DNA of 64,000 nucleotides from Geoalkalibacter sp. Lineage in GTDB: Bacteria > Desulfobacterota > Desulfuromonadia > Desulfuromonadales > Geoalkalibacteraceae. The stretch covers positions 1-64,000 of the forward strand of contig NZ_JAUWAV010000008.1 in NCBI RefSeq assembly GCF_030605225.1. Reading direction: 5' to 3'. A program made the translations under genes and the position numbers. Shown here piece after piece: positions 585 through 10,450 of this stretch. The notes under the pieces are model-generated. The model was not told the origin of the DNA, made no database searches, and was given only the letters and a program-made list of their open reading frames with translations. The first letter of the stretch is position 1, and every line of letters begins with the position of its first letter.

Positions 585-1532
585 TTAGTCCTCCCCCAGC
601 GTATCGAGATAGCGCTCCGCGAGCATGGCCGCCATGCAGCCCGAACCGGCGGCGGTGATGGCTTGACGGAAGTTGGGATCCTGCACGTCGCCGGCGGCGA
701 ACACGCCGGGGATGTTGGTTTCGCAGCCGTTTTTGGTGAGGATGTAGCCGTCCTGATCCATGTGCAGCTGGCCCTTGAACAGCTCGGTGTTGGGCGTATG
801 GCCGATGGCGATGAACACCCCGTCACAGGCAAAATCTTCTTCCTGGCCGCTGAGCAGGTCGCGTAGCCGCAGCCCGTTGACGCCCTGCGGTTTGTCGCCG
901 TGGATGGCCACCACCTGGGTGTTCCAGCGGAAGCTGATTTTCTTGTTGTCCAGGGCGCGCTTTTGCAGGGGCGGGGAGGCGCGCAGCTCGTCGCGGCGGT
1001 GCACCACGGTGACCCGGCGGGCAAAGCGGGCGAGAAACGACGCCTCTTCCATGGCGGTGTCGCCGCCGCCGACCACCACCACCTCCTTGTCGCGAAAGAA
1101 AAAGCCGTCGCAGGTGGCGCACACCGAGACGCCGCGACCGTACAGCTCCCATTCGTTGGGCAGGCCGAGCATCTTGGGCGAGGCGCCGGTGGCGATGATC
1201 AGGACCTTGGTCTGATAGCATTCCTCGCCCAGCCAGATGCGAAAGGGTGTCTTGGTCAGCTCGACGCGGCTCACCTCGCCTTCGAGAAAGCGGGTGCCGA
1301 AGCGTTCGGCCTGTTGCTGCATGCGCGCCATCAACTCGCCGCCGTCGATGCCTTCGACGAAACCGGGATAGTTCTCGATGACGGTGGTGGTGGTAAGCTG
1401 GCCGCCGGGCTGACGGCCGTGGATGACCAGCGGGCAGCAGCGACTGCGCGCGGCGTAGATGGCGGCGGTGAGGCCCGCCGGACCGGAGCCGAGGATCAGG
1501 GTTTCAAGGGTGCTCTTGCAGGTTTCGGGCAT
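585..1532 (-). CDS. trxB: Thioredoxin reductase
   Basis: FAD- and NADPH-dependent flavoprotein that reduces thioredoxin in the cytoplasm. The 315-residue protein has the usual family length, an N-terminal FAD-binding GSGPAGLTAAIYA motif, the redox-active CATC pair followed by DGFFF, an NADPH-binding VVGGGDTAMEEA motif and the C-terminal FAD motif FAAGDV. The chosen start (MPETCKS) is the only ATG close to the FAD motif; longer frames upstream run back into lipA. It overlaps the end of lipA by 29 bp, which implies translational coupling in the lipoate operon. Its place behind ferredoxin and rubredoxin genes suggests a cluster dedicated to thiol/iron-sulfur redox supply. Confidence 0.95.
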   Translation of the reverse strand: MPETCKSTLETLILGSGPAGLTAAIYAARSRCCPLVIHGRQPGGQLTTTTVIENYPGFVEGIDGGELMARMQQQAERFGTRFLEGEVSRVELTKTPFRIWLGEECYQTKVLIIATGASPKMLGLPNEWELYGRGVSVCATCDGFFFRDKEVVVVGGGDTAMEEASFLARFARRVTVVHRRDELRASPPLQKRALDNKKISFRWNTQVVAIHGDKPQGVNGLRLRDLLSGQEEDFACDGVFIAIGHTPNTELFKGQLHMDQDGYILTKNGCETNIPGVFAAGDVQDPNFRQAITAAGSGCMAAMLAERYLDTLGED

Positions 1533-2397: not shown

Positions 2398-3049
2398 GGT
2401 CGCCGGCGTTCTCCAGGGCAAAGGTGGCGGCAAAACTTGCGATCAGGGCCTCTTCGACATCCGCGGGCGCCAGGTTGCGCCCGCATTCCTCGCTCAGGGA
2501 GGTCAGGGCCACGCCGTCGAGGCCGCAGGGCACGATGGCGGCAAAACCTTCGAGGTCGGGTGCGACGTTGAGGGAGAGGCCGTGCCAGGCGACCCAGCGG
2601 CGCACGCCGACGCCGATGGCGGCGATCTTGCGGCCCCTGACCCAGACCCCGGTCTTGCCGCTTCGGCGCTCGCCGGCGACGCCGAAGCGGGCCAGGGTGC
2701 CGATGAGGGTGTCTTCGAGGCGGCGCAGGTAAAGATGCAGGTCGCGACCCAGGGCGTCGAGGTGAAGGATGGGATAGGCGACCATCTGCCCCGGACCGTG
2801 CCAGGTCACGTCACCGCCGCGTCCGACGCGGTGCAGAGCGATGCCGCGTCGCTTGAGTTCGTCTTCGTCCAGCAAAACATGCCGCTCATCGGCGCCGCGC
2901 CCCAGGGTGATGGTCGGTTCGTGTTCCAGCAGTACCAGGATGTCCGGACCGCCGTGTAGGCGCTGTTCGATCAATTGCTCCTGCAAGGCAAGGCCGCCCG
3001 CGTAGGCGAGGCGGCCTGCCCGCAGAACCTTGAAGATGGGGCGGGGCAT
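2369..3049 (-). CDS. lipB: Octanoyl-[acyl-carrier-protein]:protein N-octanoyltransferase
   Basis: Moves octanoate from acyl carrier protein to lipoyl domains, giving the substrate for LipA. The 226-residue protein carries the family signature RGGDVTWHGPGQ, GKTGVWV with the active-site lysine, and VPCGLDGVALTSL with the catalytic cysteine. An upstream ATG at 3115 would overlap the ferredoxin gene; the ATG at 3049 (MPRPIFKVL) gives a normal LipB length and a 20-bp gap and is preferred. It lies directly upstream of lipA with a 29-bp overlap, the classic lipBA pairing. Confidence 0.96.
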   Translation of the reverse strand: MPRPIFKVLRAGRLAYAGGLALQEQLIEQRLHGGPDILVLLEHEPTITLGRGADERHVLLDEDELKRRGIALHRVGRGGDVTWHGPGQMVAYPILHLDALGRDLHLYLRRLEDTLIGTLARFGVAGERRSGKTGVWVRGRKIAAIGVGVRRWVAWHGLSLNVAPDLEGFAAIVPCGLDGVALTSLSEECGRNLAPADVEEALIASFAATFALENAGDHEPAATTQA

Positions 3050-3068
3050 CCGGGGTTGCCGAGCCTGG

Positions 3069-3260
3069 TCAGTTTTTCCAGGCAATGCAGCTGACCGGAC
3101 AGTTGTCGATGGCATCCTGGATCCGGTCTTCCCCCGCTCCCGCGGCGTTGTAGACTTCGGCCACGCCGTCGCTGTTCAGGCGAAAGACTTCGGGGACCAG
3201 ATCCACGCAGAGGTTGCAACTGATGCACACCTGCTGGTCGACCACGGGTGTTCGGGCCAT
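3069..3260 (-). CDS. Small single-cluster [4Fe-4S] ferredoxin
   Basis: Low-molecular-weight electron carrier of 63 residues. CISCNLC supplies three cysteines and CPVSC near the C-terminus the fourth, which fits one [4Fe-4S] cluster; the paired second cluster motif of bacterial 2[4Fe-4S] ferredoxins is absent. It lies 15 bp after the rubredoxin gene and 20 bp before lipB, so it is almost certainly in the same transcript. A role as reductant for the radical SAM lipoyl synthase is an inference from position. Confidence 0.93.
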   Translation of the reverse strand: MARTPVVDQQVCISCNLCVDLVPEVFRLNSDGVAEVYNAAGAGEDRIQDAIDNCPVSCIAWKN

Positions 3261-3560: not shown

Positions 3561-3582
3561 CGGTTCATGGAGCGCGCACGTT

Positions 3583-4248
3583 TCAGGCCATTTCCAGAAC
3601 CGCGCGCACGGTCTTCTCGATGCCCTCGGCCGCCTCGCTGATGCGTCCGGCGAGCATATAGGCCGGGGTGGAGACGATCTTGTTCTTTTCATCGACGACG
3701 AATTCGCTCACCGGGCAGGCGACGTGCTGGGCGCCCATGGTTTCCAGGGCCTGGGCGGTGCCCGGGTCGGTGCCGATGGTCAGCTTGTGGGCAAGCTTGT
3801 CGTTGCCCAGCACCCGCGCCACCAGGGCCGGCGCGATGCACACGGCGGCCAGGGGTTTTTTCGCCCGCACCACCTCGCGCACCAGGCGCGCCACCTCGGG
3901 ATGGACATCGCACTCGGCGCCCTTGACGGCGAAATTGCACAGGTTCTTGGCCGCGCCGAAGCCGCCGGGCAGGATCAGGGCGTCGATCTCGGAAGCCTTG
4001 ACCGTCGCCAGATCGCGGATCTTGCCGCGGGCGATGCGCGCCGCCTCGACCAGGACGTTGCGCTTCTCGCCGGCGGCGACCTCGCCGCTGAGATGGTTGA
4101 CGACATGCATCTGCTCGACGTTGGGCGCCATGCACACGGCCTCGGCGCCGGCGCGGTCGATGGCCAGCAGGGTGATGACCGCCTCGTGAATCTCGGAGCC
4201 GTCATAGACGCCGCAGCCGGCCAGAACTACACCAATCTTCTTCGCCAT
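3583..4248 (-). CDS. elbB: ElbB-type DJ-1/PfpI-superfamily protein (isoprenoid biosynthesis glyoxalase)
   Basis: Protein of 221 residues, close to the 217 of E. coli ElbB. It begins [20 protein letters not shown], and has the nucleophile-elbow cysteine in AAVCIAPAL plus the [11 protein letters not shown] and [11 protein letters not shown] stretches of the family. ElbB was linked to early isoprenoid synthesis and has weak glyoxalase activity, but its physiological substrate is unsettled. The start is set at MAKKIG, which follows a GGAGGAT element; an ATG eight codons upstream is less well placed. It forms a single-gene unit ending in a strong terminator. Confidence 0.88.
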
Positions 4249-8179: not shown

Positions 8180-8833
8180 ATGGAAATCAGGGTTCTCTTC
8201 GCCGACGATCATCAGGTCTTTCATGATTGCGTCAAGGCTCTGTTCGAGCCCCATGAGAGCATCCGCATCATCGCCACCGCCGGAGATGGGCGCACCACGG
8301 TCAAACTCGCGCGCGAGCTCAAACCCGATGTGGTCGTCATGGATCTCTCCATGCCCCTGCTCAACGGCATCGACGCCACCCGGCAGATTCTCACCGAAAA
8401 CCCCGAGGCCAAGGTGCTGGTCCTCTCCAGCCACAAGGACCGCAAGACCATCGTTTCCGCCCTGAAAGCCGGCGCGCGCGGCTACATGGTCAAGGAGGCG
8501 GCCATCCGGGAACTGGTGCAGGCCATCGAGGCGGTGGCCGCCGGGCGCATGTACTTAAGTTCCCACATCATCGACAAGGTTCTCGATGCCCTGCTCGTCG
8601 AGGAGGACCCAGACAGTCCGGAGGCTTCGCCTCTCGATCGGCTTTCCGTGCGTGAACGTGAAATTCTGCAGTTGCTCGCCGAGGGGAAGAACGCCCGGGA
8701 AATCTCGCACATCCTCTCGGTCAGCCAGAAAACCATCGAATCCCACCGCCAGAACATCATGCAGAAACTCGGCGCCGAAAAGATTTCCGATCTCACCCGC
8801 ATCGCCATCCGCGAAGGGCTCACGACCCTCTGA
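8180..8833 (+). CDS. NarL/LuxR-type response regulator
   Basis: Two-component response regulator of 217 residues. The receiver domain (1-125) has the DD acidic pair at residues 9-10, phospho-acceptor Asp55 in VVVMDLSMPLL and the conserved Lys in YMVKEAA. The C-terminal LuxR helix-turn-helix (about 150-215) contains LSVREREILQLLAEGKNAREI. The start MEIRVLF follows GGGAGA by about 5 nt. No cognate kinase is adjacent. The last 16 bp before the end of its helix-turn-helix are duplicated about 1.4 kb downstream next to the traT-like gene. Confidence 0.93.
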   Translation: MEIRVLFADDHQVFHDCVKALFEPHESIRIIATAGDGRTTVKLARELKPDVVVMDLSMPLLNGIDATRQILTENPEAKVLVLSSHKDRKTIVSALKAGARGYMVKEAAIRELVQAIEAVAAGRMYLSSHIIDKVLDALLVEEDPDSPEASPLDRLSVREREILQLLAEGKNAREISHILSVSQKTIESHRQNIMQKLGAEKISDLTRIAIREGLTTL

Positions 8834-8867
8834 GGTCGCGGGCCTTTCGCCTCCCCCCGAAAACCCA

Positions 8868-8928
8868 CTCCTCCTTTTCCTGACGCAATTTCAGGTTTTT
8901 CCTGATGCAATTTCAGGGTTTTCCTGAT
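8868..8928. repeat. 61-bp direct repeat, copy 1, with internal hairpin units
   Basis: Matches 10210-10270 at 60 of 61 positions. Each copy contains two tandem 22-bp units, each a CCTGA/TCAGG inverted repeat followed by a T-run, so each unit looks like a weak intrinsic terminator. The two copies bracket the AT-rich traT-like island. Confidence 0.9.
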
Positions 8929-8929
8929 T

Positions 8930-8943
8930 GACAATTAATTGTC
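8930..8943. promoter_or_regulatory. Perfect 14-bp palindrome, candidate operator or recombination site
   Basis: GACAATTAATTGTC immediately follows repeat copy 1 and overlaps a TTGACA hexamer (8928-8933). The palindrome is not present after copy 2. Function unknown. Confidence 0.4.
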
Positions 8944-9059
8944 TGCAATTTACCCTTGCCTGGCCTGGAATTAAAAAGAATAAATTATTTATTTTTCTTT
9001 AATTTTTGGCTTCAACTAGGGTCGTCCGGCCCGTCGACCACATACCTGGAGGGTATTGC

Positions 9060-9206
9060 ATGAAACGATGGAGAAAGTTGGGCGCGGTTTTAGAGTGGGG
9101 AAAATTGCTTGGAGGTGATGGTCATCAACGGTTTTGCTCATCAATATCAAATTCAAGCCCTGACGTCATATTGGGAACGATAGATTCAGCGTTTTTTCAT
9201 ATTTGA
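9060..9206 (+). CDS. Doubtful 48-residue open frame in the AT-rich island
   Basis: Starts MKRWRKLGAVLEWGKLLGG and has a good GGAGGG ribosome site 6-7 nt upstream of its ATG. It has no recognisable domain and no codon bias I can use over such a length. It may be a remnant of a gene that arrived with the traT-like segment, or chance. Confidence 0.25.
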   Translation: MKRWRKLGAVLEWGKLLGGDGHQRFCSSISNSSPDVILGTIDSAFFHI

Positions 9207-9368
9207 CGAATACTGTTTTCGAGATTTTTTTGATAAGTTTTAACAGGGGAAGGACTTGTCGCTAATCTGGATGATCGTCGCTAAATGTCGCCTTAAGTTT
9301 TAGAGTAAAATAGTTTGTTGAAAAATTTTTTCTTGATAAAAATTCAACAAAATAAAAGGAGAGAGATG

Positions 9369-10124
9369 ATGTTGCAAAAGAAATTTTTTAGTACTGTCGC
9401 TGTGGTCGTTTTGGCCTTGTTTGTTCTTTCTGGCTGCTCCTCGACAATGAATGCGATCAAAAATAAGGATCTTCAGGTTTCTTGCAAGATGTCGGACACG
9501 ATTTTTCTTGATGCGGAATGCCTGACAGGTGGGCCGAAGGTTTTTGTTCGCGTTGCCAACACCAGTGATTTCCAGGACATGGATTTCAAGGAAGTGATTG
9601 TCCAGAAATTGCGGGAGATGGGCTATGAAGTCACGCCTGCGGCGAAAGACGCACAGTATCATGTCGCAGCCAACATTCTCTACATGGGGCAAAGAAAGGA
9701 AGGCATGGATGGGGATGCGATCCTTCGCGCTGGGTTTGGCGGCGCCGTGATTGGTGCGACGGTTGCCGGGGTTTCCGGATCGAGTCTGCGGGGGGCCGGC
9801 GCCGCTGGGCTCATCGCCGGCGCTGCGGTCGCGGGGACCGAAGCACTGGTTGGTTCGGTCTTTCATGTCGATGAATATCTCGGCGTTATCGATATCCAGA
9901 TCATGGAAGAGGTGGAAGGTGGCGTAAAGGGTACCGAAACAGCGAATGTCATGCAGGGCACCAGCACCGCAAAAGAAATTACGCGCCAGATTACGGAAAA
10001 GCGCCAGGAATATCGGACTCGAATCGTTGCCTCGGCCAAGCAGACCCGAATGGATCGCAATGAGGCCGTCAGCGTCCTCTCTGAGCGCCTGGGCGCGCAA
10101 ATCTCCGGGCTCTTCAAGATCTGA
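9369..10124 (+). CDS. TraT-family outer-membrane lipoprotein (complement-resistance/surface-exclusion type)
   Basis: A 251-residue lipoprotein. The N-terminus MLQKKFFSTVAVVV...LSGC is a type II signal peptide with lipobox LSGC. The mature part resembles F-plasmid TraT throughout: SxxMNAIKNKDLQVSCKMS near the start, VRVANTSDFQDMD, a Gly/Ala-rich central segment (about 115-150; GFGGAVIGATVAGVSG), VIDIQIMEEV, and a C-terminal QGTSTAK ... YRTRIVASA stretch. TraT blocks entry exclusion and complement attack on conjugative plasmids. Here it stands alone, is AT-rich compared with its neighbours and sits between direct repeats, which suggests horizontal arrival. The ATG at 9369 or 9366 follows AGGAGAG; both are possible. 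Confidence 0.85.
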   Translation: MLQKKFFSTVAVVVLALFVLSGCSSTMNAIKNKDLQVSCKMSDTIFLDAECLTGGPKVFVRVANTSDFQDMDFKEVIVQKLREMGYEVTPAAKDAQYHVAANILYMGQRKEGMDGDAILRAGFGGAVIGATVAGVSGSSLRGAGAAGLIAGAAVAGTEALVGSVFHVDEYLGVIDIQIMEEVEGGVKGTETANVMQGTSTAKEITRQITEKRQEYRTRIVASAKQTRMDRNEAVSVLSERLGAQISGLFKI

Positions 10125-10153
10125 TCAGGGGTTGGCGCATCAGATGAAATCAC

Positions 10154-10181
10154 GAGGAGGCGGGGGCAGCCCCTCCTCCTC
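10154..10181 (+). terminator. GC-rich hairpin after the traT-like gene
   Basis: GAGGAGG-C-GGGG pairs with CCCC-T-CCTCCTC around a GCAG loop, 30 bp after the stop codon. It lacks a T-run, so it may be a pause or RNA-stability element rather than a full intrinsic terminator. Confidence 0.45.
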
Positions 10182-10209
10182 TGCGATTGTTGCCATCCGC
10201 GAAGGGCCT

Positions 10210-10270
10210 CTCCTCCTTTTCCTGACGCAATTTCAGGTTTTTCCTGATGCAATTTCAGGTTTTTCCTGAT
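10210..10270. repeat. 61-bp direct repeat, copy 2
   Basis: Second copy of 8868-8928 (60/61 identical). It is preceded at 10192-10207 by 16 bp identical to 8804-8819 inside the response-regulator gene; the 48 bp that separate the two blocks in copy 1 are missing here. Confidence 0.9.
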
Positions 10271-10412
10271 AGTCGAAAAAATCAGAACATTGTATTGTTA
10301 GGCCGTTGTTTGGCTGTTTCAGCGGCGGTGCGAATCGGCGTTTGGATTTAGAAGACGTGAAGGAGGGACCCGGTTTTTCGGAACCGGACGAAAGATTGCC
10401 GTGACTGCTTTT

Positions 10413-10450
10413 GGCCCGGTCGGAGTTATCCGCCCGGGCCGTTTTTTTTT
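10413..10450 (+). terminator. Intrinsic terminator
   Basis: GGCCCGG-T-CGG pairs with CCG-C-CCGGGCC (10413-10440), followed by nine T residues. It would stop plus-strand transcription coming from the traT-like island before it runs into the convergent hydrolase gene. Confidence 0.8.

Follow-up and report, generated by a model that had tools for sequence, protein, structure and literature searches.

The traT gene of a Geoalkalibacter strain has probably become part of a defence and surface regulon that is linked to a response regulator, and the two direct repeats that enclose it are, as part of the same reading, best regarded as copies of one activator-type promoter module rather than as an insertion scar. 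The gene lies in the window, which is the whole stretch of 64,000 nucleotides that was analysed (contig NZ_JAUWAV010000008.1 of assembly GCF_030605225.1, forward strand). The operator-promoter identity of the repeats, their spacing, the small RNA (sRNA) family, the regulator linkage, a lipoprotein gene remnant, the defence genes downstream of operators, and the phylogeny of TraT are read from the sequences themselves.

According to the proposed model, the response regulator would bind a tandem pair of TCAGG-N5-CCTGA palindromes, with the -10 element of the promoter exactly 23 nt downstream. The right copy of this module would drive an sRNA, and the left copy would once have driven a conserved lipoprotein gene, which is decayed in this genome. 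Behind the left promoter there is now a traT gene of the chromosomal type, which would thereby have joined the regulon. In Geoalkalibacter, genes for type I restriction, NERD helicases, RES-Xre, and capsule follow the module, and toxin-antitoxin and AbiE cassettes lie beside it. From this company it follows that TraT would most likely be a surface barrier within a co-regulated regulon. That it acts as a barrier to DNA or phage is quite possible but falls short of being probable.

The traT locus

The TraT-family outer-membrane lipoprotein is encoded on the forward strand at positions 9366 to 10124 (start at 9366 or 9369). The protein matches Pfam PF05818 over its full length (E 7.6e-50; 170 bits, curated cut-off 31), which bears out the full-length TraT match claimed in the preliminary description of this DNA, and solved TraT chains from the PDB match it as well (9fs5, E 9e-24). 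A lipoprotein signal with a lipobox cysteine (LSGC, MLQKKFFSTVAVVVLALFVLSGC) was recognised by eye. The gene is present in one copy in its own 3.7-Mb genome (G000). It is surrounded by genes for a regulator, an sRNA, a hydrolase, and TrkH; the context of a tra operon is absent, and no tra-like genes were seen among the neighbouring ORFs. The content between the repeats consists of traT and a gene remnant only, without an integrase or transposase ORF. The GC content of traT is 0.54 and its GC3 0.61, compared to 0.61-0.67 and 0.80-0.92 for the neighbouring genes, and the 440-bp spacer 5' of traT has a GC content of 0.37. The initial observation of a TraT-like lipoprotein gene of low GC content that lies between direct repeats in the absence of tra genes is confirmed by these data. 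One correction concerns the repeat, which also occurs at other loci.

The repeats as operator-promoter modules

The repeat pair comprises positions 8855 to 8928 and 10197 to 10270 with 92% identity over 74 nt. By BLAST, the repeat has a length of 64 nt with 96.9% identity (E about 5e-25), which is far beyond chance, and the 61-bp core (8868 to 8928 and 10210 to 10270) differs at one base, exactly as had been reported. Each repeat consists of two TCAGG-N5-CCTGA palindromes whose starts are 22 bp apart. In the left repeat, the putative operator of the left promoter, these are TCAGGTTTTTCCTGA at 8891 to 8905 and TCAGGGTTTTCCTGA at 8913 to 8927, and a predicted -10 element (TACCCT, 8951 to 8956) follows 23 nt after the operator. 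In the right repeat, the putative operator of the sRNA gene, the palindromes are located at 10233 to 10247 and 10255 to 10269, and the predicted -10 element of the sRNA promoter (TATTGT) at 10293 to 10298. The right repeat is adjoined by a 16-bp exact copy (10192 to 10207) of the end of the response regulator gene (8804 to 8819). All of these elements are on the forward strand.

A search for the repeat elsewhere in the genome, which the preliminary description had suggested, revealed related copies on three further contigs (C27, C47, and C68). Matches to the palindrome with at most one mismatch always occur in 22-bp pairs in this genome, namely in both window repeats, on C27, on C47, and at two places on C68, where one site has a strong palindrome with a weaker partner 22 bp upstream. 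Strong copies of the operator are present in five Geoalkalibacteraceae genomes. For a comparison of spacing, 29 operators were picked without regard to the -10 element (promoter-proximal sites in fetched stretches, G000, G001, G002, G003, and G005; mostly perfect matches). A TANNNT motif is found exactly 23 nt downstream of 22 of these operators, compared to about 0.9 expected (binomial 2e-27), and at none of 21 two-mismatch background sites in G000 (19 distinct). The second half-site 22 bp upstream is kept on average among the 29 sites. This layout resembles an activator site centred near -43 together with its -10 element and suggests activation rather than repression. A simple sigma-70 scan found no -35/-10 pair at the repeats, as is expected for activator-dependent promoters.

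A remnant of the start of a conserved lipoprotein gene, broken by stops, lies behind the left promoter on the forward strand at 9042 to 9122. It is identical to the gene of G001 at 33 of 38 nt, and tblastn aligns it with the start of the G001 lipoprotein (54.5% over 33 aa, E 2.7e-6). At the equivalent place in G001, this lipoprotein gene is intact (775 aa). In G049, which belongs to another family, a conserved lipoprotein with 40% identity to that of G001 over 390 residues is encoded behind an operator with the -10 element TACCGT at 23 nt. The remnant together with the operator-lipoprotein arrangement in G049 indicates that the left promoter belonged to the conserved lipoprotein gene and that traT is now located behind it. 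The left repeat faces an AT-rich leader of 440 bp that opens with the remnant. Several features count against traT as a member of the regulon: the left -10 element TACCCT is weak, the leader between the left promoter and traT is about 400 nt long, and traT is found behind the operator in its own genome only.

The response regulator and the small RNA

The gene upstream of the left repeat (8180 to 8833, forward strand) encodes a NarL/FixJ-type response regulator (GacA/UvrY-like; Pfam Response_reg 4e-26, GerE 2e-18). NCBIfam models of the GacA group match it below their equivalog cut-offs (NF007018, 153 bits vs 280), which indicates membership in the same superfamily only. A scan of genome contigs with the regulator alignment yielded one congener and unrelated regulators. 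Orthologues share 61-88% identity within the Geoalkalibacteraceae and 42-56% in other families of the Desulfuromonadales. In G001, G002, G003, and G005, each orthologue is followed by the operator and the sRNA. In other families, a tandem operator behind the orthologue is supported in G033, G013, G020, and G049 with p=0.003, the lowest value that 300 shuffles allow, and in G450, G024, and G056 with p values of 0.007-0.03; the rest were not significant, and about half of the distant orthologues are without a recognisable operator. An RNA-like stretch with GGAGGGG and a terminator lies 3' of the operator in G030, G010, G521, G056, and others, and in G030 and G010 an apparent TrkH gene comes next, which is also the case in the window. 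In G024 and G450, a lipoprotein gene is located behind the operator of the regulator. Based on this linkage, it is rather likely that the module is bound by the response regulator encoded directly upstream.

In G016 (L143, about 1405-1430, minus strand), a GacA-box-like TGTAAG-N7-CTTACA replaces TCAGG-N5-CCTGA behind the orthologue and precedes a GGAGGGG RNA-like stretch with a terminator. A GacA box was considered as well, and this was the only related site.

The right repeat appears to be the promoter of a predicted sRNA on the forward strand with approximate ends at 10305 and 10450, a GGAGGG motif at 10362 to 10367, and an intrinsic terminator at 10413 to 10450. Rfam models gave nothing above the gathering score at the locus. 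A covariance model of the family reaches 65-108 bits at two to four loci in each congener (one only in G002), 69 bits in G005, and at most 38 bits elsewhere in the order, and it exceeds background only in G000, G001, G002, G003, and G005. The better assemblies contain three to four sRNA copies per genome, and each copy has an operator at the same distance. The terminator stem has two-sided pair changes at 5 of its 11 pairs, and 97 of 99 cells are paired.

GGAGGG is present in all 19 compared RNAs, with 18 occurrences in 11 family copies (1.9+-1.3 in shuffles) and 9 in 8 others (0.7+-0.9). GGA (58 vs 50.6) and ANGGA (13 vs 8.5) are not raised over dinucleotide shuffles, and the sRNA is therefore not called CsrB/RsmZ-like. 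The idea of a multi-GGA sponge was not supported, as GGAGGG is the only motif enriched over shuffles. In G001, a MITE-like hairpin element (AACCTGGATCCGTGA...; L028, 2070-2241) disrupts one of the sRNA copies, and a similar hairpin element is found near the sRNA of G056 (L150).

Genes behind operators at other loci

The genes that strong operators precede in G000, G001, and G003 were typed with Pfam and PADLOC. Type I restriction genes comprise HsdM (G001 2761832; E 2e-251 to the PADLOC type I methylase model), HsdM together with a NERD-helicase gene (G001 3665202), HsdM-HsdS with a DUF262-like gene (G003 C1:383098), an N-terminal HsdM fragment recognised by eye (G001 944879), and an HsdR-like gene (G001 1527055), which a transposase-like gene separates from the promoter. 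At this last site (L196, about 830-2130), the transposase-like gene apparently severs the operator from the HsdR-like gene. Further operators precede a NERD-helicase gene (G000 C27), a NERD-helicase remnant (G003 C1:4353), an Xre-RES pair without a -10 element at the standard place (G001 3975425), and capsule-type CapD genes (G003 C11, and G001 2879045 by eye). Some operators are followed by PDZ or unidentified genes, and the fragment downstream of the C47 operator had no Pfam match. In total, about 8 of 17 non-sRNA operators precede defence-type genes, two of which were judged by eye. PADLOC at 1e-15 found none among 10 genes behind weak background sites, a control too small for exact enrichment. 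Thus, a shared operator is located in front of several unrelated defence genes, as in a co-regulated defence regulon, of which no description was found in the literature searched.

Duplicated modules were also observed around other genes. On C68 of G000 (L032), two sRNA modules at 2855-3095 and 3816-4056 (241 bp, 91%) enclose a PIN toxin gene with its presumed antitoxin, on the opposite strand. At 2.546 Mb of G001 (L134), two sRNA modules at 2001-2271 and 3578-3849 (272 bp, 97%) flank ParE/Phd and PIN-type toxin-antitoxin genes. On C8 of G003 (L207), two operators at 223 and 3202, at a distance of 2979 bp, enclose an sRNA and AbiEi/AbiEii genes.

The operator search in outgroups yielded few sites per genome, which lie beside the regulator gene, a lipoprotein gene (G049), or a signalling gene (G033). 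No defence genes were found behind the outgroup operators, and the expansion to defence genes therefore appears to be confined to Geoalkalibacter.

Origin and distribution of TraT

Across the phylum, the cut-off of the TraT family is exceeded in 38 of 395 genomes. Three congeners and two family members lack the gene, and among 58 relatives only G023 encodes another full TraT. The G023 protein is chromosomally encoded, 65% identical to the window protein, and its sister in the tree with a support of 100/100. Plasmid TraT proteins from Edwardsiella, Erwinia, E. coli, Aeromonas, and Legionella form a separate clade with 29-36% identity to the window protein, which scores 113 bits with the equivalog model for plasmid TraT (NF010291; 445 needed). 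The assignment to plasmid-type TraT in the preliminary description did not hold up in this phylogeny, which places the window protein outside the plasmid clade and with a chromosomal homologue of the same order. TraT has been described as widely chromosomal and taken up by plasmids more than once (PMC11733297), and the phylogeny of the window protein agrees with this. A scan of genome contigs with the TraT protein returned nothing, and no phage records matched TraT. On a plasmid of Legionella antarctica (L164, 359-1278), a csrA-like gene lies directly 5' of traT.

A tandem operator comparable to that of the window is absent at traT of G023. Its leader contains a c-di-GMP-I riboswitch (62 bits; L011, 1051-1129), which again hints at a connection between chromosomal TraT and surface life.

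Alternative explanations

It is highly improbable that the repeats are tandem weak terminators (CCTGA-N7-TCAGG followed by TTTTT) behind the regulator gene: a pattern scan marks four such stem-loops, but the CCTGA-N7-TCAGG stem is gone in the copies of G001, G003, and G005, in which TCAGG-N5-CCTGA and the 23-nt spacing are kept. The operator could also be real and be bound by a different regulator, with the response regulator gene as a mere neighbour. This is unlikely; it would fit the distant orthologues that lack an operator, whereas at least seven genomes outside the family have the operator immediately after the regulator gene, and G004 (81% complete) is without both regulator and sRNA. 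Similarly doubtful is a Gac/Rsm system in which the sRNA would be a CsrB/RsmZ-like sponge for CsrA. A GacA-like regulator adjoins the sRNA gene, csrA is present in the genome (87 bits, E 2.4e-24), and every one of the sRNAs carries the enriched GGAGGG, but GGA and ANGGA remain at the level of shuffles, there are only one or two motifs per RNA, and csrA is followed by a fliW-like ORF (FliW by eye), the other known CsrA control.

With regard to the segment as a whole, the preliminary description had proposed a capture island with an inserted plasmid-type traT and the 61-bp repeat as junction or att duplication, which is now very unlikely and largely refuted by the promoter role of the repeat. 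What stands of this proposal is that traT is patchy and of atypical composition, and that G002 (a MAG of the same genus, matched to NZ_JAUVWH) and G003 have one repeat at the site and no cargo. Its plasmid origin and the junction are not upheld. The segment is without a mobile-element ORF, the repeat recurs as operator-promoter at many unrelated loci with a -10 element at fixed distance, it is kept behind regulator orthologues in other families, TraT does not fall among the plasmid proteins, and G001 has the two-repeat layout around other, intact genes. The pattern of empty sites is likewise compatible with a loss through recombination between two promoters, given that G001, which has two copies around other genes, is more distant (73% regulator identity to the window, 88% for G002). 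The two-promoter layout was either ancestral and lost by repeat recombination, or it arose more than once. The copy of the regulator gene end beside the right repeat points to segment duplication or conversion within the own genome. It is plausible, if somewhat less than probable, that the modules are not only promoters but also recombination units and that traT arrived as cargo gained or lost by homologous recombination between duplicates. Cargo lies between duplicated modules at five places (the window, the G001 regulator locus, G000 C68, G001 2.546 Mb, and G003 C8), and with the right repeat of the window come 16 bp from the end of the regulator gene; however, tandem duplication with gene conversion would look identical, and no mobile enzyme is encoded.

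Comparison with known systems and implications

The reading of the repeats as promoter modules of a response-regulator-linked regulon can be compared with described systems. Like the chromosomal TraT homologues described previously, which have variable contexts (PMC11733297), the window protein is a TraT-domain lipoprotein encoded on a chromosome without tra genes and distant from plasmid TraT; unlike them, it is encoded behind a multi-locus operator common to defence genes. In Pseudomonas, where Gac/Rsm controls defence (PMC11888443), and in Serratia, where Rsm controls CRISPR (PMC8450108), a GacA-type regulator and sRNA likewise go together with a broad defence set. In contrast to these systems, the operator is located directly before the defence genes here, the sRNA family is new, the bacterial class is different, and a link to CsrA is hypothetical. 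In Marinomonas, a response regulator controls CRISPR (PMC8523701), which is similar in that a two-component regulator acts on defence genes, whereas type I restriction, NERD helicase, toxin-antitoxin, and capsule genes with an sRNA-linked module are concerned here. Geobacter sulfurreducens is a related bacterium with csrA-fliW, for which CsrB-type sRNAs have been predicted and none characterised (PMC11934962, PMC13407953).

In its widest form, which is put forward tentatively, the proposal is that of an undescribed response-regulator regulon of the Desulfuromonadales with a tandem operator and a new multi-copy sRNA family. Within Geoalkalibacter it would have expanded to restriction systems, NERD helicases, toxin-antitoxin, AbiE, capsule, and chromosomal TraT, with modules that may serve as plug-in promoters and recombination sites and with TraT as a barrier to foreign DNA. 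The joint control of diverse bacterial defence genes is largely open, and known cases are mainly from Pseudomonas and Serratia. From a TCAGG-N5-CCTGA pair with a -10 element at 23 nt beside the regulator gene, a regulon of this kind can be predicted for iron-reducing, electroactive bacteria. It would provide a candidate sRNA family in a group without a characterised CsrB-type sRNA (PMC13407953), and a candidate role for chromosomal TraT, whose function was left open by a structural study of 2025 (PMC11733297).
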